Positions 6,394 to 49,484 of a stretch of DNA of 64,000 bases are shown here, in pieces. The notes under the pieces were generated by a model. That model was not told the origin of the DNA and did no database searches. It saw nothing but the letters and a program-made list of their open reading frames with translations. Within the stretch, counting starts at the first letter, position 1; every line of letters starts with the position of its first letter. Source of the stretch: Tridacna crocea. Its lineage: Eukaryota; Mollusca; Bivalvia; Cardiida; Cardiidae. Location: assembly GCA_943736015.1 (NCBI GenBank), contig OX031057.1:37224501-37288500 (forward strand). The letters run 5' to 3'. The translations under genes and the position numbers were made by a program.

Positions 6394-7949
6394 ATGGACA
6401 AGGTACTAATAAATTACTGTCTGGTGCGTCAATTATTAGCTCTGCCAGGAATTGGAGAGCATCTAGCTGCTGAAATTTTGAAAATGAGAGAGGAGAAAGG
6501 AAATGTAGATTTAGAAGAGTTTCGATCTATTCGAGGACTCAGAATCACAGATGAATTGATAGACCAGGGCCCGTATTCACCAACCATTCTTGAGAATATT
6601 CTTAGGCTTATTCTTCAGAATTTTGCCAATGTGAAAGTAACAGAACGTCTGATTGGCTAAACCGGATGGTTTAGCCAATCAGACGTTCTGTTACTTTCAC
6701 AGTCAGGAAATCTTGAAGAATAAGACCAAGAACGTTCTTGAGAATTGTTGGTGAATACGGGCCCTGATAGACTTTAGACCTTACAAGCCGTCTTATAAAG
6801 AGGTTCAAAAAGATACAAGAAGACAATGGTCTTCAATGAAAATGACAGAGCCCCATATCATTTTGATCAAAGTGTTCCCTCACTGGTAGCTCACTACCCT
6901 ACACAAACCACTAGTACCTATGACAGTCCATATTATGGAGATCATGAACGGAGATCAAATAACTCGTTCTATTCACAGTATGCTGCCAGAGATGCTTATA
7001 ATGTCGTCCGCAAAACTAATTGGGTTGACGACTGCAATGCACAAAGACATGATTTGTGCTATGAGCCAGTAACGGTTCTAAGGCACATCAGCTATGATGG
7101 CACTGGTTCATGGCCATCAGTTTTTGTAAACTTTGCTACCTTCGCTGAAGAACAACAATGGACAGGAAGGGAAAGAAAGAATAATTGGTGCTGGTGTTTG
7201 CAAGGTCGAGCAAGAGACTACTTTGCTATGATCATGGACAGGGAACCAAATTTGGAATATTTTGATTTGGTTGAAAAACTAGAGAGAAGATTTAGTCCTT
7301 CCGATCTTCCCAGCGTGCTGAGGATGCAATTTGTAAATCCGTGCCAAAATGTGATGAAAGTATTCATGAATGGGCAGACAGAGTGGCATACCTGGGCACA
7401 AAGGCCTATAGAGACATGCCAGAACATCTCATTCAATATGAGCTTGTTCTGAAATTTTACCAAGGTTGCATAGATACTGATTCCGGTCACTATGCAAGAA
7501 ATATGAAACCATAGACCTTGGAGCAAGCAATAGGCCATGTAGTGTGGAATCAAAGCACTTCAAAAATGATGAATGAGGGACGGGTTAGACGTCCCAACCG
7601 GCAAGTTCGTGCAAATACAGAAGCAGGTGAAGAATTCTCTGTTGATGCTTCAAGTAGACCAGAGTTAGAGAAAAGAATAACCACTTTAAAGGGGAAGATG
7701 TGTCATGTTGTGACAGTATTAGAAGAATTGAAAACTGTCATCTTAATATCAGAAAGTGGACAAGGAGATAGATCTAGGTCCCCAGAAAGGGACCCAGATA
7801 GGCGTACTTATCATAGTTGTAATGAAGTGGGCCACTTAAAGAAAGACTGTCCTAAGCAGCACAAATCGGTAAGGTTTCACGAGACAGTAGACTCATTAAA
7901 CGACCAAAGGTTGAGGGAGAAGGCCAGCCTTCAACCCAAGCAGAATTAA
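6394..7949 (+). pseudogene. Gag region of the LTR fossil, broken
   Basis: The first part has a helix-hairpin-helix look (LPGIGEHLAAEIL). The middle (about 7085-7330) reads like a Ty3-type capsid, with WTGRER...GRARDYF and YFDLVEKLERRF. The end carries one CCHC knuckle, C-x2-C-x4-H-x4-C (HSCNEVGHLKKDC), near 7815-7855. The region is interrupted by a MITE and broken several times. It would have packaged the element's RNA in an intracellular particle. Confidence 0.6.
6566..6765. mobile_element. Foldback MITE (GGGCCCGTATTCACC ends) inserted in gag
   Basis: The long inverted arms, AGGGCCCGTATTCACCAAC and GTTGGTGAATACGGGCCCT, fold almost end to end around GATTGGCTAAACC and GGTTTAGCCAATC. The flanks read GATAGACC and GATAGACT, an 8-bp target duplication with one difference. 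That length together with a CAGGG-type end suggests a hAT-derived MITE. Relatives lie at 40340-40526, 40976-41182, 42793-42975 and, as a half copy, about 37080-37110. Confidence 0.75.
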
Positions 7950-15143: not shown

Positions 15144-15483
15144 TAAGGCCACATTCAAGTGATGGAACAACTTTACAAAAAATACAATTTTTGTCAGGCA
15201 TATGAAACATCTTTTGGGAAAATACATGATGCAAGAAAGAGCTAAGGGTAGATACGCGCGCTTGAAATACGATAAGCTGATAGTGGATACGGATATTTTT
15301 AAATTTGATGACTCAATCAATCGAATCGTGAGAATTGGAAAGAACAAAGGTCACCAACAGCCAATCGCATAAGGGCGGGAAAATGACCAATATGACGTAG
15401 GTGCATCAGACCAATCGGACTCTGACAACGTGGGAGTGACCGGTGCGGTAGGAGGAGCAATATAACAGGGCGGTCAAGGCCTA

Positions 15484-18400
15484 ATGAACAATGTAAACAT
15501 TTTAACGTGGAATATTTGTGGTCTGAAAAAACATACATCGGATCAATCTTTTATACGTTTCCTAACAAAATTTGATATAATCGGACTTTTAGAAACCTGG
15601 AGCGACTTTACAGGAGAATTCTTCGATATTTTAAATGGTTACACATTATTTGATTCCGTAAGGCAAAGGCGTAAAAACTCTCTTAGAAATAGTGGGGGTA
15701 TAGCTGTTTTTGTCAGGAACTCGTTTACAAGGGATAATTTCATCACTAGAATCCATCATGATTTTAAAGATTGTATTATTTTGTACGTTAAATCAAACAC
15801 TTTTAAATTTATGCAAGATATGCTTATTTATATTACATATATATCACCTGAGGGATCAGCCATATATAAGGACAGGGAAGAGAAAAACGGTATCGTTACC
15901 ATGGAAAATAATATAACATTTATTCGTCAGCAATGCCCAAGTAGCTATTTGTATATTGCTGGGGATTTAAATGCTCGAACAAAAGACCTGTTAGATTTTA
16001 TACCAGACGATTCCTTAGATTATGTTTTCAATGATAATGTTGATTATTTGTCTGATATTTTTTCTACTCCTAGAAATAATAGATATGTAGAGAGATGTAA
16101 CATGTTTTGTAAATCGTTGGTAGAACTTTGTTGTTTATATGATGTACATATATTGAATGGTAGATTACATGAAGATATGGTTGGAAATTTCACCTGTTTA
16201 ACTAGTAATGGAGCTAGTTTAACTGATTATCATATTGCTTCGACATTTTTGTTCCCTTTTGTTACATATTTCAATATTCTTGAAAGAGATGAGTCTGATC
16301 ATTTACCTATTCATTCCGTCCTAAGTTTTAAACATCAACAAAAAAACCCATTCAAAGAAAAAAATGAGCAAAATTTACACAGCAAATGTTTTCCCAAGTA
16401 TAAATGGAACGAACATTATAGAGAAAATTTTACCAGTATATTTAAGACAAAATTACGTACCTCCTTTGATTTGTTAATGCATTATGCAAATACAAATGTT
16501 AATCATTCAGTTAATACCTTAATAGAACTTTATCAGTCATCAAGTAAAAAGATGTTAGTCAAACCTCAAAGAAAGGACCTTAACACTACTACGGATCAGC
16601 CTTGGTGGGATACAGATTGTGACAGAGCAAAGTACCGCAAGTATGCAGCACTACGACGTTTCCGTTCTACAAATCAACACATCGATTATACTGCCTATAT
16701 AGAAACTAAACGTTCATTTAAAAAGATTTGTGGGCATAAGAAGTCAAATTATAATTTCAACAACAGGCAAAAATTGATTTCATCAAGAAAAAATCCTAAG
16801 ATATTTTGGCAATTACTGAAACAAAATACAAATAAGAGTAAAAATATAGAAAATACAACATGTAACTTACAAATATGGAAAAATCATTTTGAAAATTTGC
16901 TATATAAAGAAAATCAACCACCGCTCGAATATTCCAATTTTGCTGGTAGAGAGGATAACAATGAGAACATATTAAACGAAATAATTACTCTAGATGAAAT
17001 ACACAAAAGCATTAGAAAACTAAAATTAGGTAAGGCCCAAGGTACCGATGGTATTGGCGCCGAGTTCTACAGATATACGTGTCACGAAATCGCACCAATA
17101 TTATGCACACTTTTTAATAATATATACTCTACTGGAAATTTGCCGGACATGTGGAGAGACAGTGTTATAATACCAGTATACAAATCAGGGCTAAGAGATG
17201 AGCCCGCTAACTACCGGGGAATATCTCTTATAAATGTAATGTATAAGATATTTTCAAATATTCTATAACGACAGGCTACGTAAATGGGCCGAGCTTAACA
17301 ATAAAATTGATGAAGCCCAATCTGGTTTTCGGGCAGGATATTCGACCACCGATAATATTTTTATTCTACAAAGTCTTGTTCAAAAATATCTAAGCAAACA
17401 GGGAGGGCGATTTTATGTACTGTATGTTGATTTCAAAAAGGCATTCGATTCGGTAGTGCACCAAAATTTATTTAATTGTCTAAAAAATATTGGTGTTAGT
17501 AGCAAAATGTTAAAAATTTTATTATCCATTTACTCAAATATGCGTAACTTTGTACGAGTTAATCAAACATTTACTGAACCATTTCCTTGTTACATCGGCA
17601 CTAAACAAGGGGACGTAACTAGTACGATACTTTTTACACTTTACATTAACGAGTTACTTACCTTCTTAAGAAATAAAAATCACAGAGGAATTTTCGTGAC
17701 AGAAGATATTGAAGATGTAATTTGTATTCTCTTCGCGGATGATATTGCAAACTGTGCTGATACAGCAATAAATTTACAGTTACAACTTAATTCTATCTCC
17801 GAATTTTGTAGTCAGACGGGTTTGGCTGTAAATCAATCAAAAACGGAAATTATAGTCTTCAGAAATTCTGGGCCTCTTCGTAACTATGAACATTGGACTT
17901 ACAATGGAGAAGCAGTAAATGTTGTTACAATCTACAAATACTTGGGACTGATTTTCACCCCAACTCTATCATGGGGTAAAGCGAAACAGAAACTAGTAGC
18001 GCAAGCTAATAAATCGATTTTTGCAATAAAATCTTATCAAAAGAAATTTGGACATTTTACTCTCTCTGATCATTTCAAATTGTTCGATTCTATGGTAAAA
18101 CCTATACTACTATACGGGGGAGACATTTGGGGCTTCGAATATACAAGTGAAATTGAAAAAGTTCAAATAAGATTTTGTAAAGATTTTTTAGGTGTAGGAC
18201 CTTCAACGAACGATTCTGTTGCATTGGGAGAATGCGGTCGACTGCCACTATGTGTAGACTATTTTTTAAAATGTATAAAATATTGGTTAAAATTATTATA
18301 TATGCCTCAATACAGATTACCAAGAAATTGTTATAAGATGCTAAAAGGTCTAGATGATACCGGTAGAAATAATTGGGCTTCAGCCATCAAACATTTATTA

Positions 18401-18934
18401 TACTTACACGGGTTTGGAAATGTATGGTTAGCACAAGAAGTGGGAAACATTGAAGTGTTTTTATCTATCTTTAAGCAGAGGGTCATAGATTGTAGGAAAC
18501 AAAATTGGGAGGAGGCTATAAATAGTTCGTCGCGATGTAGCACATATAAGTGTTTTAAAACAATGTTAAACCCCGAAAGATATTTAAGTTTAAATATTTC
18601 GTATTCATTGAGAAGAAATTTGGCAAAATTTCGATGTTCTAATCATAAATTCAAAATAGAAGTCGGAAGACATTTAGGGATCGAAAGAGAAAGAAGAATT
18701 TGTTCCTTTTGCTATAATAATCAGAACCTATCTTATGTTGAAGACGAATACCATGCGTTCTTCCAATGCTTTCAATACAACAGTGAAAGAAAACGTTATC
18801 TCAATAATTGGTATAAAGGTAGAGGCACCCTCGATAACTTCTACAGGTTAATGAAAACAACGGAAGAGTCCACTATTAGAAAAATCGCAATTTTTGTCAG
18901 TGCCATAATGAAAGTGAAAGAGTCTCAAATTTAA
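15484..18934 (+). pseudogene. LINE endonuclease-reverse transcriptase, one frameshift
   Basis: Residues 1-280 are an exonuclease-endonuclease-phosphatase domain: TWNICGL near residue 8, Glu37 in LLETW, GDLNAR near 160 and SDH near 272. The RT follows: GTDGIGAEFYR and NYRGISLINVMYK before 17268, then in the next frame FRAGYSTTDNIF, YVDFKKAFDS, GTKQGDVTS, FADD (17733-17744) and YLGLIF. The carboxyl end has C-x2-C...H-x4-C (CSFC, HAFFQC). The protein nicks target DNA and copies its own RNA there. A single-base shift lies near 17262-17268; otherwise the frame is open for about 1,150 codons. It could be a sequencing indel in a live copy. Confidence 0.85.
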
Positions 18935-24074: not shown

Positions 24075-24322
24075 TAATAGAAGTCTAAAAAAAAAAACTA
24101 CATTTATTACGTGACCTAGCATGTATGATCTGAGTTTTTCTATCTCCAAAGAAATAAAGCTTATTTGGTCTCGGTTTATCAATGTTTTAGCGATATTTAA
24201 AAGAAAACAACGTTCCGGCATTTTTCGTTTCATCTGATAAACAGTTCCAATCATTGATCACTGATGGCAAGAATGAACTTCTGTACAAAGTGACTCTGCA
24301 AGCAATGGTTCGCAAGTTATTT

Positions 24323-24530
24323 TCTTACGAACAAAGTCCGTAACAAAGAAACAAATGAATAAATGCATGGCAGAAATAAGGGTCGGAGCGGGATTCGAAC
24401 TCCGAACTCCCGGATGCAAAGCCAATACCCTAACCACTGAGCCAAAGAGATATCTCCCTGACGCAGTAGCCAGGTATTGTATTTAAATCGGGAGTATATG
24501 CCATGCAGGAAGGAGTGGTCTCCCGTAACA
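24323..24530 (-). repeat. 3' LTR of the mini-element
   Basis: 208 bp, with A box at 24434-24444 and B box at 24390-24400. The polypurine tract is directly next to its start. Confidence 0.88.
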
Positions 24531-24542
24531 CACCCCCTCTTA
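24531..24542 (-). promoter_or_regulatory. Polypurine tract
   Basis: On the minus strand AAGAGGGGGTG directly precedes the 3' LTR, the standard position for plus-strand priming. A perfect 7-bp hairpin (GTCATCA and TGATGAC) lies just upstream at about 24545-24563. Confidence 0.75.
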
Positions 24543-24628
24543 AAGTCATCATTTATTGATGACTCAAAGCCTTATTAGGCAGGAAGTCCGATTTTGGACA
24601 ACAAATGGGATTGATGGCTCAATGGCCA

Positions 24629-24646
24629 ATCCCGGACGAGCCCCCA
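24629..24646 (-). promoter_or_regulatory. Primer-binding site, tRNA-Pro type
   Basis: The minus strand reads TGGGGGCTCGTCCGGGAT right after the 5' LTR. These 18 bases are, from memory, identical to the tRNA-Pro primer site of murine leukaemia virus. Confidence 0.85.
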
Positions 24647-24854
24647 TCTTACGAACAAAGTCCGTAACAAAGAAACAAATGAATAAATGCATGGCAGAAA
24701 TAAGGATCGGAGCGGGATTCGAACTCCGAACTCCCGGACGCAAAGCCAATACCCTAACCACTGAGCCAAAGAGATATCTCCCTGACGCAGTAGCCAGGTA
24801 TTGTATTTAAATCGGGAGTATATGCCATGCAGGAAGGAGTGGTCTCCCGTAACA
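24647..24854 (-). repeat. 5' LTR of the mini-element
   Basis: 208 bp. A TATA-like TTTAAATA lies about 45 bases in, then the A box (24758-24768) and B box (24714-24724) of the tRNA-like module. Confidence 0.88.
24704..24775 (-). ncRNA. tRNA-like module (A and B boxes) inside the 5' LTR
   Basis: The minus strand reads TGGCTCAGTGG (A box, TRGYNNANNNG-type), a TTTGCAT loop as in tRNA-Ala(TGC), and GTTCGAATCCC (B box), with normal tRNA-like spacing. The T stem is imperfect and there is no 5' acceptor strand to match TCCGACC, so it is not a working tRNA gene. It is a tRNA-derived RNA polymerase III promoter candidate. The same module is at 24380-24451 in the other LTR. Confidence 0.7.
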
Positions 24855-24858
24855 ATTT

Positions 24859-25753
24859 GGTCTTCGAAATTGTAAGATGATGATTCTCCAACTGTCCGAG
24901 GAACAAGAGCATTAAGATAGTTAGGAGATAGTCCGTTGAACATTTTATAAAAGAGAATCAGTTTGTGTTTTCGCCTCCTTTGGCTTAAAGTTTCCCATCC
25001 AGTTTCTTGGTATAGATCACGGATAGCAGCTAGTTTGGTGCAGCCTGTTACTATGCGAGCCGCTTCATTTTGAACTTTATCCATTTGATCTTTCAGACCC
25101 TGAGAAAAGTTGTCCCATACAATATCACCGTATTCAAGAATAGGCCTGATAAATGAAAAGTAAATAATTTGAAGAGAAAGATGATCGAGACGCATTTTTA
25201 GATGCCGCATGATTCCAATCCTTTTCCAGGCTTTTTCAATAGATTTACTAACGTGAATGTCCCAAGAACCGTCATGGGAGAGAAGGAATCCCAAATGTTT
25301 ATGACTGGTAACAGACAGTATTTCTATATTTGACATAAACAGACCTGGGTGATTTGGCTTGGAACGTTTACGAGAATTTACTAAAGATTCAGTCTTAAAT
25401 GGATTAAACTTGACCAACCACTTCTGAGCCCATTGATTAATTTTGTCGATGTCTGATTGTAAAACTCTTCCAACTTCGTCCGGATTACCTACAACCATTG
25501 ATAAGCTGGTATCGTCAGCAAACAGATTAATATTGGCCTGAATGTCATCTACTATATCATTGATGTAATCTAAAAATAACAGAGGTCCGAGTATAGAACC
25601 TTGGGGGACACCGGCTTGTACACGACTTAAAGTTGAAACACCGCCAGGCAAAATGACCCTTTGATAATAAATAGAAAGGTAAATGGAAAACCAAGATAAT
25701 AACTTTCCACGAATCCCTTCTCCCTTAAGCTTAAAGAGTAAACCTTCATCCAA
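24859..25753 (-). pseudogene. LINE reverse transcriptase (partial)
   Basis: About 300 residues of RT: GVPQGSILGPLLFLDYINDI, NLFADDTSLS (catalytic FADD intact), KTESLVNSRK, HLGFLLSHDGSW, then a thumb-like region with RPILEYGDIVWD and AARIVTGCTKL. These motifs fit the CR1/Jockey-like group. Upstream RT motifs (26291 down to 25753) continue in other frames. The frame runs on past 24859 only because it reads into the inserted mini-element; the true continuation (NLRTIACR, then FLPSVINDWN) resumes below 24320. Confidence 0.8.
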
Positions 25754-27047
25754 ACGTAGTCAAATACTTATATCGAAAAATAAAACTCTGAATTCCAAAC
25801 CATTATCCAAAGCTTTACAAATGTGGTTATAGAGACAAGCTATTTGATTAACAGTTGAGTCACCTGGCATGAAACCAGATTGCCAAGGTGTAAAGAAATT
25901 GATGTCTTTTAGATAGATGTAAAGTTATAAACATGTTTAAAGATAAATCTTTCTAAAACCTTTTCAATATTACTCAACAATGAAACAGGCTTATAATTGG
26001 AAGGAAGGGATGCATCACCTGATTTATATATTGGACACACCTTGGATATTTTCCAAGATGATGGAACAGAACTGGTATTTAAAGATTGATTAAACAGATC
26101 GCACAGGTAAGGTGCCAGCTGACCAGCAGCCTCGATAAGAATTCCATTATTTATGCCGTCAGGTCCTGATGCCTTACCAAGCTTAAGTGTTTTGAGAACA
26201 TCTAGTTCTTCAGACGGCGTGACATTGATAGAATCTAAGGAATTGTTTATAAATTTCTGATTTTCATCTGGAATAAAACTTAAGGAATCGTCAATCGTCT
26301 ATGCACGACTGGTTTGCAAAGTATGAATTAAGTAAGTTTGCTTTCTTGTCCTCTTTGATAATCATAGAGTCGTTAGAAGTATCATACAAAGAAGGGATAG
26401 ATGTTGACGAATGAGAACACATGAGCGACTTTAGAGTTTTCCACCAACCATGCCATGACAGAGTTCCAGATTTCAATTGTGAAGCCAACCGTTCGAAATA
26501 TTGTGCTTTATTTTGTCGGATCAATGCAATGACTTCATTTCTAGCCGACCTAAAATTTGACCAGTGGCTGACATCGTTTGACTTCTTTGCTTTTCTATGA
26601 AATCTTTTAGGGCGACGTATTTTCTTTTTAATCTCACTGTTCAACTACGGAGGTTCTTTGGGATTGACATAAACATTTTTGCAGGGGATAAACTTACATG
26701 CGTTTTCTGTAATGACATCCGCTAAACTGTCAGCATAAATTTCAATATTAGAATTGTGTATAGAGCTCCAATCAATAATTTAGAGGTTATGTCTGAGCTG
26801 ATTATAATTACTTTGGTCATACTTCCAAATTGTTGGCTTTATATTCTTAACCTTGGGTTTAAGAAAATTAAAGACACTAAAGACAGGGCAGTGATACCGC
26901 ATCAAGGTTCGCCAACGCCCATTGTTAGTAAGAAATTCCTTTAAAAGTCATGATTAATCTGTTTGACTCCTATTTGTTGCATCAGCCCTTTACCATTCGA
27001 GCGAGGTGTGGATTTTGTGACCAGTGAATTTACAGAGAGACTACATC

Positions 27048-39083: not shown

Positions 39084-40339
39084 GCCTTTCAACTAAATAC
39101 TGCAACGTTTCCACATCTGTCTGAAAAAAAGGCGTTTGAATTTAACAAAACACTGACGGATGAAGAATTTGTTAAAGAAACTGTTAGAAATTTGTGAGAT
39201 TTTGTCGTAACACTCGAATTATGTTTACTCCTACTATTATTGCTACATTAGGTACCATAATTGATAAGTTTTCAGCGATATTTTGCATGAAACTGAAACT
39301 GTGAGGTGATGTTTGATATAAATTTTGCTGGAGCCCATCCACTGAGAATTATAGGCGTGAAGACTGACCATTGAAGACTGACAGACGTAGTGATATGACC
39401 CATGGGTCATTTTGTAGGGGAGGGTAATTTCTCTGCATTACATCGGCATTTTGTAGAATTTATAATACAGATACTTTTCTTTTCTACTCAGCCGCCCTCA
39501 CAATAGTGTTGTACTCTACAATATGCACCACTTGGAAAAGGACCTTTTTATGCTTTGAGTCTAATGCCCCGGCATGTCTATTTAACCCTTTAACAAACGA
39601 CAAAACTTTAGACCTTTTCAAACTGAACGCAATCACAGTGATTACAAATCGATCACCCTAACCACTAATGATAACTATACATGTTTGTCATGAAGCGAGT
39701 AGAAGACGACATAATCTTACCATAGTTAATATGTCTTTCTCGCTCTCTCAAACCGTCTCTCTCGTTGTACAAAAAGAAATAAGACAAAGACTCTGAGACA
39801 ATGGCAATAGAAATGTAGTCAACTCATAAATGAGATTAGCGTCTCATTAAATGAATGGTCGGGAAAGGGACGCCCATGTGTGTCAATGGAATATACAAGT
39901 CCCACACTCTAGATTACCTAACAGGGCTTAGGACTCGTTTTTGCTTTATTTGAAAGATAATGAACTTCATGAACAAGAGACTGGACAGGCTGATCCCATT
40001 TGACCTGTATTTGGAGAAGATAAACTGCAGTTCTGTTATCAGTGGATTGTGTCTGATGCGTGTGTCTGACGCTGTCAACAGTTCAATCCACTACCCTCCT
40101 TCACCACCAGTACCATCGCCGCCGCCACCACCGCCATAGGCCACCACAGCACCACTTCAGCCGCCGCATCCTAGAGGTCTGGGGCTTAATACTTACTGGA
40201 TAAGGTGACTTTTTACAAAAGTGTCCTTGGGTGAGACTCTTCAGGACGCTGGTCTCGCTCGCATAAAACCATGGCCAGACGTGAATAAGTGAGCTATGTT
40301 ATCAGACTGAAATCATGTTGAAAGCAGTTTAAAAAAAAC
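39084..40339. other. No gene; repeat fragments and a CCG/CCA-rich tract
   Basis: A right-end fragment of the GCCGGTGTAATGCAGA MITE lies at about 39392-39452. A left end of the TTAA family (TTTAACCCTTTAACAAACGAC) lies near 39586. A CCG/CCA trinucleotide tract runs 40083-40165. Confidence 0.5.
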
Positions 40340-40526
40340 AGGGCCCGTATTCACCAACTATTCTTAAGAACATTCTCTGTCTTATTCTCCAGAACTTTCT
40401 GTATTTATAAGTAACACAACTTCTGATTGGCTAAACCAATCAAAAGTTGTGTTACTTACAAATTTAGAAAATCTCGGAGAATAAGACTAAAAATATTCTC
40501 AAGAATGGTTGGTAAATACGAGCCCA
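40340..40526. mobile_element. GGGCCCGTATTCACC-type foldback MITE
   Basis: Both arms are present: GGGCCCGTATTCACCAAC at the left and GGTTGGTAAATACGAGCCC at the right. The inner arms CTGATTGGCTAAACC...CAATCAAAAG and GTAACACAAC...GTTGTGTTAC pair. Confidence 0.75.
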
Positions 40527-40975
40527 GGTTAGATTCTACTTTGTGAGGGAAAGTACTGAAGGTTCAGTATCCGGAAAAGTTAGCTGTGAAACGATTATGT
40601 TGGGTACGAAATCCAGTAGGGGAGAATCATTTTTCGTGTACTTGGTTTTCTCTTAAACCTGACATGACCTTGTGATTTTTCTATCATCTTCCAAAAATCT
40701 TTTTAGGTCAAAATCATGTTTTATGCACCTTCAGCTTCAACCGTTCACTAAACACTTTTGTGTTTTAATTACAATGAAGAACTTGAGCAGGCCTCAGGAA
40801 TCATTGTGGGATAAGAAGAAAATGCTAGTCACCAGATTTTCTCTTTTTCTCGCCATGATATATTCCCTCGCAAAGGTACAATCTTTAGATTTAGCCACAT
40901 GTAATATATCATATGCGAATAAGTCTCCGACTTCATTGTCACTATTAAAGTGTGTAAAACTGACTCTTGTAGTAA

Positions 40976-41182: not shown

Positions 41183-41827
41183 GAATCGAAAAGGAAAATT
41201 AAGTAAAGGTGCCAAATACTGTACAAATAGATGTGAACACTTGTTAAGTGTCATATTTATTTATTGATATAAAAGAAATATACAAAATATTAACTTTTTA
41301 ATCATGATTCAAAACATACTTAAATGTAACATGGAATAATAACACTCTGTAAATGTAACCAAAAAAACACGTTATGGAAGGCTAATTTACTCTTCATCCA
41401 TTTACCAGGTGAGCCCATTTTTACGACCCTAAAGAGGAGGGCCTTTTGAAAACAGTTTGATAACAGTATAAATGTGGTTTTTTTTCGATCTCACACACTT
41501 TTCTCTGCATTTCATGAAACAAATTCCATTATTTGTGACAAAATAAATGTGACCCAGACATTGAAATTTGTCTTTTCAAGAGTAGAAATCATTGTAGGAA
41601 AATGACGAAAAAAAATGCTGGAACCCTAAAACAAGATATAATGAGACGAAGGAAGAAAGTTTATCTCCTTTTCACAAAATGATTTTCGTCCTATCATATA
41701 TAAATTCTTCAATTTCATACATATTCAATTGTTCATATTTTAACAACCCTTCAGAAGAAGGTCTTTGAAAAAATTGTAAGAAAATACTTCTTGTCCTTTC
41801 AAAGCCAAATTCAATACATTTTACTAT
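41183..41827. other. No gene recognised
   Basis: AT-rich sequence with degenerate pieces of the TTAA-family foldback (CATTGTAGGAAAATG near 41590). Confidence 0.4.
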
Positions 41828-42092
41828 ATGGAGCGCAACACGCGAAAAGGTGCATTCGGACATTTGCGTAAAGTGTTGTCTCGGATTAGCCTGCGCAGTC
41901 CGCGCAGGCTAATCCGAGACGACACTTTACGACTACATTAGATTTTGTGTTACAGTAGACTTACGTAAAACAGAAAATCACATAAAATCGGAAAGTGTCG
42001 TTTCGGATTAGCCTGTGCGGACTGAACACGCTGATCCGAGACGACACTTTACGCAAATGTCCGAATGACCCTTTTCGTGTGTTGCACTCCAT
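41828..42092. mobile_element. Double-hairpin MITE (CGGATTAGCCTG family)
   Basis: The outer arms ATGGAGCGCAACACGCG and CGTGTGTTGCACTCCAT pair, as do CATTCGGACATTTGCGTAAA and TTTACGCAAATGTCCGAATG. Each half also folds on itself: CTCGGATTAGCCTGCGCAG with CGCAGGCTAATCCGAG on the left, and the equivalent on the right. A second copy is at 49218-49484. Confidence 0.8.
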
Positions 42093-43294: not shown

Positions 43295-44043
43295 ATGTTT
43301 TTCACACAAGGTAAATACGAATCTCAGCCTTGTAACATATCAAAGAATGTTGTCATGAAACCAGCTACTTTTGATAGGTGTGGGGCATGGCTGGCCTATA
43401 TAGCAGCTTTTGAAGCATGTGCCGATCTAAAAGGCTTGTCAGAAGAACAGAAGAGGTTATACCTCTCTGTTTCAAAACGAGGGCAGGCTCAGGGTGTGTT
43501 TGGTAATCTTGGGTCGGGGAAACATGATTTTATGACGACCCGGTCACTACTGTAGAAGAAAGATTTGCGCAGCCAAACCAGATTCCAACAACGCGAAGGT
43601 CGTCAAAAACCATCAGATAAGGTATGTGGCGCTTAACGCATTTAGCCAATTCAAGAGCCCCTAGTGACGTTAAAGAAAGAGTGGCAATGGAGAAATTTGT
43701 AGATTCTCTTGTCATCTCTGAAATGCGTTTAAGAATTAAACAGGTAAGACCTGTTGATCTTAATCATGCAGTTAGGCATGCAGCTGAACTAGAAACTTTC
43801 TATGGTTCTGAGAACAAACGTCTCGGAGAGACAAGATCTGCAGCCTTTGATGATCAATGTGAGTCACTAAAATATCCTGAATGGAAAGAAGAATTTTCAA
43901 CGCTCTTACGTAGACGCAAAAGTCCTTGCCCGAAACCACCGCAATGTACAAAAGGTATTGTTAGTTTGTTACGAATGTTTGTTGCTGGGAACCAGCTGAC
44001 CCGTTTCCTTCTTAAATTTTTTCCACGTGAAACTGTCACGTAA
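43295..44043 (+). pseudogene. Ty3-type (Gmr1-like) gag fossil, broken
   Basis: The text MKPATFD...WLAYIAAFEACADLKGLSEEQKR and the later DVKERVAMEKFVDSLV...RLRIKQVRPVDLNHAVRHA are the capsid style I associate with molluscan Gmr1-like Ty3 elements. It is broken in a few places. No LTR or pol is attached. It may belong to the same family as the pol fossil at 60.2-62.8 kb. Confidence 0.65.
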
Positions 44044-44658: not shown

Positions 44659-45479
44659 AAACACTGAAATTTCTGAAATTTATATAAAAAAAAATAGAAA
44701 TCATCAATAATTAAAAATCATAAAAGTACAAAAAAAATATGGCATTCCCTTAAAAAGGCTACGTAGCCTCATAAGCTAAAAATATTGAGGGAATGTTAAG
44801 TGACTGGCACGTGACTAATGACTCTTAAATTCCATAACATAACAAACATGTAATTATTTTCCATGATATTATCATTATTTTATTGTTTTTCCGCCAAAAT
44901 GGCGAGCATTATATAATAAAATACAAGAAAACAGTAAGAATGAAATAACAAACAAAAAAAAGTAGGTAAATGTCATAAAGAGAGAAAATCAATGTACGAC
45001 CAGACTCCGACCCGAAAAAGACCCTTACAATAAAAAGACGAAAATGCAAAAGCCCTTTCCCTGGTCAGAATGCGGGAGCACATTGTTAAAACTCAAAGTA
45101 CAAAATAAAGAAGAGAAACGAGACAAAAATAGGTAAAAGGAAAGCATGAATCAAGTAAGGGGACCTTGCAACGAAAGCGAAACACAAGGCAATCATAGGC
45201 AACAGAATATTTAGGAAAGCAACGCAATATTTAGGAACTAAATAATGAAGCAGACCCCTAGAATAAGTCCATTGATTGAATGAATGAGCGGATAGATCTA
45301 TAGAAGAATTAACCGGACAATCATTCAATCAATCGACTAGAAATTGCTGGCTGGAGTTAGCGGCAGATAAATAATAATATACAGTATTGAATCGAGGCAA
45401 CAGAGGCAAAAAACAAAAACAGATATGTCACAGCTGGTTGGGCATGGGGCTGAAGAAGTTAAGATAATATATTAACGCT
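44044..45479. other. No gene; microsatellite and AT-rich DNA
   Basis: Apart from the TG/TA microsatellite at 44604-44657 I see nothing I can support. Part of 45085-45479 may be 3' UTR of the LINE fragment that follows. Confidence 0.45.
44604..44657. repeat. (TG)n(TA)n microsatellite
   Basis: About 17 TG units run into about 9 TA units. Confidence 0.95.
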
Positions 45480-49217: not shown

Positions 49218-49484
49218 ATATGGCCTGTATCACGAGAGAAGGGGCATTTAAGCATTTGCGTAAAGTATCGTCTTGGATCAGCCTGTGCAGTCCGCACAGG
49301 CTGATCCGAGACGACACTTTCCGTTTTGATGTGCTTTTCTGTTTTGCACAAGTCTACTGTAGCACAACTTATCTTGTTTAGTCGTAAAGTGTCGTCTCGG
49401 ATTAGCCTATGCGGACTGAGCAGGCTACTCCTAAGCGACATTTTACTCATAGGTCCCTTTCCACGTATTGCAAGCAACATTATA
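49218..49484. mobile_element. Double-hairpin MITE (CGGATTAGCCTG family), copy 2
   Basis: Same plan as 41828-42092, with GATCAGCCTGTGCAGTCC paired to CGCACAGGCTGATC on the left and a weaker right hairpin. Confidence 0.75.

Follow-up and report, generated by a model that had tools for sequence, protein, structure and literature searches.

A Helenus-type TRIM with tRNA-type Pol III promoter boxes in both LTRs, inserted in a bivalve LINE

Helenus elements (TRIMp3) are TRIMs whose LTRs contain tRNA-derived sequence, and they have been described in fungi, animals and one plant (Kojima 2024, PMC10886601). In bivalves, 51 families are known from five orders, all pteriomorph, with primer tRNAs for Lys, His, Ile, Pro, Glu and Ser (PMC10886601). 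Animal Helenus elements range from 311 to 1263 bp in length, generate 4-bp target duplications and likely depend on Gypsy partners (PMC10886601). Boxes A and B of the Pol III promoter are conserved across families: box B contains GGTTC, and box A contains TRGCY and YGG in most families, both patterns standing outside the definition (PMC10886601). Few families are predicted to encode a tRNA, and in some fungi Helenus inflates tRNA gene counts (PMC10886601). Literature searches on both names turned up no other account of these TRIMs, the three further papers listed being unrelated by title. The plant element Cassandra, built on a 5S promoter, carries Pol III promoters and terminators within its LTRs (excerpted text of PMC7215508; also PMC10886601), and its RNA is predicted to form a super-hairpin in which LTR is paired with LTR (same excerpt of PMC7215508). 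Ajax, an animal TRIM of nemerteans, likewise has a Pol III promoter from a small RNA, which in this case is derived from 5S, together with 5-bp duplications and a tRNA-Leu primer (PMC10886601). Bivalves also harbor biv-TRIM, with repeats of 202-218 bp around an inner domain of 77-80 bp; its PPT is mostly GGGGAGA, an unambiguous PBS is lacking, and all species except one conserve a TGATCCCAAAGGAC segment (excerpted text of PMC6934838). Further accounts, available in part, cover a TRIM of ants (PMC3532108) and the transposons of bivalves (PMC10294476).

The element described here lies on the minus strand of a 64-kb stretch of bivalve DNA, which was analysed over its whole length and is called the window below; it measures 532 bp and is read from 24854 to 24323 (Table 1). 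Its LTRs begin with TG and are 99% identical, differing at LTR positions 116 (G/A) and 149 (T/C), neither of which falls within the A or B box. The internal region of 116 nt opens with TGGGGGCTCGTCCGGGAT, closes with AAGAGGGGGTG and has no coding capacity of its own, the only ORF of at least 130 aa that touches the element being the frame of the adjacent LINE running in. The original prediction of two 208-bp LTRs, a PBS, a PPT, an ATTT duplication and no coding region, laid out on the TRIM plan of LTR-PBS-PPT-LTR, was thereby confirmed in all its parts. The characters by which TRIMs are recognized are all present: a length below 1000 bp, two short LTRs without a coding region between them, a PBS beside the 5' LTR, a PPT beside the 3' LTR and a target-site duplication. 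From this anatomy it follows that the element is moved by LTR-retroelement machinery, as had been proposed. The PBS has a single match in the window at up to three mismatches, and none of 100 shuffles matches it. A 19-nt stretch at the PBS is identical to a primer for the 3' end of human tRNA-Pro (sequence from the available portion of PMC12217144). The 18 nt of the PBS are also those of the MLV PBS, the primer site for proline tRNA, and are contained in the MLV-PBS probe of PMC4587795 (excerpted text). Further LTR copies are absent from the window, where nothing beyond 13-nt matches was found, and the putative family is represented by a single locus, the copy in the window.

Table 1. Features of the element and of its insertion site, in coordinates of the 64-kb window
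Feature	Coordinates	Strand	Basis
Helenus-type TRIM, complete, 532 bp	24323..24854	-	LTR pair and full anatomy
5' LTR, 208 bp, starts TGTTACGGG, last bases GTAAGA	24647..24854	-	
3' LTR, 208 bp, differs from 5' LTR at 2 positions	24323..24530	-	
PBS, 18 nt, TGGGGGCTCGTCCGGGAT, tRNA-Pro type, abuts 5' LTR	24629..24646	-	
PPT, AAGAGGGGG, 2 nt ahead of 3' LTR	24533..24541	-	
Target-site duplication ATTT, first copy	24319..24322	.	
Target-site duplication ATTT, second copy	24855..24858	.	
A box, TGGCTCAGTGG, LTR 87-97, 5' LTR	24758..24768	-	
B box, GTTCGAATCCC, LTR 131-141, 5' LTR	24714..24724	-	
A box, 3' LTR	24434..24444	-	
B box, 3' LTR	24390..24400	-	
Predicted RNA hairpin, LTR 36-125, 5' LTR	24730..24819	-	Fold prediction
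Same predicted hairpin, 3' LTR	24406..24495	-	Fold prediction
LINE reverse-transcriptase ORF (RVT_1), one flank of insertion	24860..25759	-	RVT_1, E 2.7e-10
LINE ORF continuation, other flank, stretch used in empty-site test	24200..24318	-	

The element sits cleanly within a LINE, flanked by a 4-bp duplication, and its empty site is well supported. The interruption of the LINE ORF amounts to 532 bp plus 4 bp. When the element and one ATTT are removed in silico, the LINE codons CCA AAT and AAC TTG are joined, and the LINE frame of the reconstructed empty site runs unbroken from RRPN to NLRT. A protein search for homologues scored 7989 candidates, placed 6438 above threshold and listed 120. On the joined segment, 72 of the 120 listed homologues score at least 60 and the remaining 48 score below 60; 69 of the 72 span the junction, and all 69 are ungapped there. 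An apparent frameshift about 10 bases before the insertion site is a property of the LINE copy. Elsewhere in the window, a LINE-like pair of overlapping ORFs occupies positions 15466-18934, the first with an endonuclease domain and the second with a reverse-transcriptase domain.

Each LTR contains an A box and a B box, which are identical between the LTRs and lie 44 nt apart, start to start, in both, so that the tRNA spacing originally predicted stands. Within the window, a looser version of the A/B pattern is confined to the two LTRs; none of 100 window shuffles contains it, and its TAGC variant gave 0 matches. A tRNA-His gene from a viral contig aligns colinearly, over its positions 10-64, with LTR 89-141 at a score of 32; across 500 shuffles compared with the same set of 18 tRNAs, the highest score was 29 (0 of 500 as good). 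These 18 comparison tRNAs are the ARAGORN tRNAs of two contig loci matched by the B box plus the start of the PBS; the second-best of them scores 24 and the mean over all 18 is 17.7, so the other tRNAs are unremarkable. ARAGORN finds no intact tRNA in the element, and Rfam returns no tRNA match in the stretch 24200-25000 even at E up to 10. The element has therefore kept a promoter core within a tRNA-like remnant and not a working tRNA. Across the whole window, Rfam yields no match at gathering score, and in the stretch 24200-25000 no 5S match appears even at E up to 10. The one Rfam match obtained there, to MIR1031, was rejected: it scores 18.7 bits where the gathering score is 100.

A TRIM counts as Helenus when both of its LTRs contain tRNA-derived sequence, as those of the present element do. 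The likeness of the element to the published families extends to Pol III promoters of tRNA origin in the two LTRs, a PBS and PPT, and a bivalve host; its 4-bp ATTT duplication, tRNA-Pro primer, length of 532 bp and A box, which fits the TRGCY and YGG pattern given for most families, all agree as well. The B box begins with AGTTC and thus departs by one base from the GGTTC of Helenus. On this comparison, in which the element was matched to the published description, the assignment to the Helenus kind is firm. The original prediction of an animal counterpart of Cassandra built on a tRNA was accordingly right in kind, but the kind had already been published (PMC10886601). The novelty implied alongside it, with no described molluscan case known, does not stand: 51 bivalve Helenus families are in print (Kojima 2024, PMC10886601). 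The element adds a locus to a kind described in bivalves in 2024 and is no new class. The comparison with Cassandra is supported: both have a Pol III promoter inside their LTRs, of tRNA type here instead of 5S, and in both LTR-LTR pairing is predicted (for Cassandra, in the available text of PMC7215508). Apart from its plant host and 5S promoter, Cassandra differs in having terminators in its LTRs according to that text, whereas the bivalve element has no TTTT. Ajax shares with the element an animal host and a Pol III promoter of small-RNA type, but is set apart by its 5S-derived promoter, its nemertean hosts, its 5-bp duplications and its tRNA-Leu primer.

Taken as a whole, the locus is very probably a Helenus-type TRIM that has inserted in a LINE and that would be transcribed from a Pol III start and moved by the proteins of a Gypsy-type element. 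Transcription from tRNA-type promoters starts 12-20 nt upstream of the A box. Pol III bound to the A and B boxes of the 5' LTR would thus start at about LTR 68-75, and its transcript would comprise the rest of the 5' LTR, the interior, and the 3' LTR or beyond. The proteins of a Gypsy-type element would then provide packaging, tRNA-Pro-primed reverse transcription and integration, with strand transfer via the long shared R region. We infer this mechanism as a whole from analogy and from one copy. No autonomous partner was found in the window. As a separate observation, ORF stretches at 6799-7949 and 43621-44043 resemble Gypsy gag by eye, their sole Pfam match being a zinc knuckle at 7515-7946, just under the curated cut-off. 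No pol-like ORF of at least 130 aa is listed beside these stretches, and they have no tRNA-Pro PBS nearby, since that PBS occurs once in the window.

A strong Pol III stop downstream of the start would end the transcript within the 5' LTR, so under the proposed mechanism the part of the LTR after the start must be free of one. The sense strand of LTR and interior contains no TTTT although T makes up 33% of its bases. Dinucleotide shuffles contain TTTT 3.1 times on average and lack it in 0.85% of cases; mononucleotide shuffles contain it 2.4 times on average and lack it in 6.3%; and 106 of 2548 overlapping strand tiles of the same length from the window (4.2%) are without it. By these figures, the absence of TTTT is unusual but not remarkable. 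Beyond the element, the sense strand reaches its first TTTT after 116 nt of flank. At LTR 176-189, runs of T3 are broken by single bases. Split T3 runs can act as a leaky stop, a property of Pol III, and those at LTR 176-189 could serve in this way to give a tidy R region.

Alternatively, the element could be an ordinary Pol II TRIM with a SINE fragment in its LTR, whose A and B boxes came along as passengers and whose transcripts begin downstream of a TATA-like box. Such a box, TTTAAAT, is indeed present at LTR 44-50, some 18-31 nt upstream of the expected start stretch, and marks a possible Pol II start; the degeneracy of the tRNA-like part, in which neither ARAGORN nor Rfam recognizes a tRNA, would likewise suit a passenger. 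An AATAAA at element position 298 is also available, but it precedes the 3' LTR, so that an RNA ending there would be cut short. Against this reading, each box is identical between the LTRs, the pair keeps the spacing of a tRNA, both LTR differences fall outside the boxes, and the boxes are conserved across Helenus families (PMC10886601). The lack of TTTT on the sense strand also argues against this alternative, which we judge unlikely.

It is far less probable that the Helenus-type element is a copy of the published biv-TRIM family, with which it was compared by description. Both are bivalve TRIMs of similar repeat length, and the 208-bp repeat falls within the range reported for biv-TRIM in the excerpted text of PMC6934838. 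The two part company over the interior, which in our element spans 116 bp, includes a tRNA-Pro PBS and lacks TGATCCCAAAGGAC, whereas biv-TRIM, as described in that text, combines a shorter inner domain with a different PPT and no unambiguous PBS, and Pol III boxes go unmentioned there ("A box", "B box", "Pol III" and "polymerase III" are absent from the main text of PMC6934838). A tRNA-derived SINE, or two tandem copies of one, would account for a tRNA-like head bearing A and B boxes but is hardly credible given a PBS that abuts the LTR, a PPT before the second repeat, a TG start, a 4-bp duplication, no visible A-rich or simple-repeat tail and a LINE ORF interrupted by 532 bp plus 4 bp.

Copies of the Helenus-type element were also sought in two collections, viral_contigs and genome_contigs, which hold viruses and prokaryotes, so that absence from them carries no information on bivalves. 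The 16-mer at the LTR start matched once in viral_contigs and 21 times in genome_contigs. These 22 loci were rejected as copies, as they share with the LTR only the seed and a few bases (at best 22 nt among the BLAST matches listed), which is attributed to chance. Compared with the whole element, the best of the BLAST matches listed for the 22 loci covers 32 nt at 87.5% (E 0.006) and was also taken as chance. The LTR end plus PBS and two tRNA-like patterns gave 0 matches each in viral_contigs. The B box plus PBS start matched twice; one match bridges two genes of a tRNA array, and the second lies outside any ARAGORN tRNA and is put down to chance. Both were discarded.

RNA folding predicts a hairpin in both LTRs, in which the A-box half of the tRNA-like part pairs with a degenerate copy of itself that lies upstream in inverted orientation (a 74% inverted repeat). 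The LTR RNA folds at -83.5 kcal/mol, compared to -53.6 (sd 4.2) in 200 shuffles, none of which is as good (z -7.1). Such strength is not unique to the element, as 21 of 1228 strand tiles of the window fold at -83.5 or below, the element's included, and several of the others sit over the window's listed inverted repeats. The window also contains repeats, MITE-like by eye, with further copies in direct as well as inverted orientation (6561-6766, 40335-40534, 41826-42092 and 49218-49469), some of which form imperfect palindromes about 80-88% alike.

The arms were aligned at the DNA level, with no credit for wobble, and departures from Watson-Crick pairing were classed as they would appear in sense RNA. 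The alignment has 30 Watson-Crick columns, 8 G-U and 0 A-C, the remainder being 4 other columns and 3 gap columns. Because the departures are G-U and never A-C, the sense core folds better than the antisense core (-48.0 vs -26.9). Among 1227 overlapping window tiles, 52 fold at -70 or below on one strand, the element's tile among them, and the five with the largest strand difference within those 52 all overlap the element. The top three strand differences among all 1227 tiles are also the element's, and differences of 25 to 27 kcal/mol occur elsewhere too, at 44929, 44461 and 11285. The 8-to-0 excess of G-U has a one-sided probability of 0.004 at even odds and of about 0.026 at the odds of about 1.7 to 1 derived from the element's base counts. 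As G and T abound on the sense strand and the locus is a single one, the excess is only a hint that the RNA strand, rather than the DNA, is under constraint.

Folding predictions for the whole RNA allow LTR-LTR pairing, as is expected of any element with a self-complementary LTR. We tentatively suggest a role for this pairing that we consider possible, if doubtful: the LTR would be an RNA device, in which the R region of the 5' LTR pairs with U3 of the 3' LTR and tethers the two RNA termini to each other during strand transfer or packaging, a part that the predicted super-hairpin of Cassandra might play too. The sense strand would be kept without Pol III stops to prevent the 5' LTR from terminating the transcript that starts in it. 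The words "hairpin", "palindrom" and "inverted" are absent from the main text of PMC10886601, and "terminat" appears there twice, both times in a passage on Cassandra. Neither the hairpin of the LTR nor the TTTT-free sense strand thus seems to have been discussed for Helenus, and both features, each drawn from one locus, seem to be new relative to that main text.

The bivalve lineage around the element can be approached through a neighboring gene. An open stretch of 365 codons at 37986-39083 matches galactose-3-O-sulfotransferase. Of its 34 homologues, 16 carry organism names, and all 16 belong to genera that we take to be bivalve. In a tree of 35 rows, the protein from the window groups with five others (99/93), the only named one being from Ruditapes, a heterodont according to Table 1 of PMC6934838 (available in part). 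This position in a tree of one gene with paralogues weakly suggests that Helenus may also occur outside Pteriomorphia.

The locus provides one structurally complete insertion with a supported empty site. By joining a Pol III promoter to LTR-type replication, such elements blur the boundary that separates SINEs from LTR retrotransposons. The TTTT-free sense strand and the hairpin of the LTR, both open to testing, are relevant to how an RNA made by Pol III can act as the genome of an LTR element.
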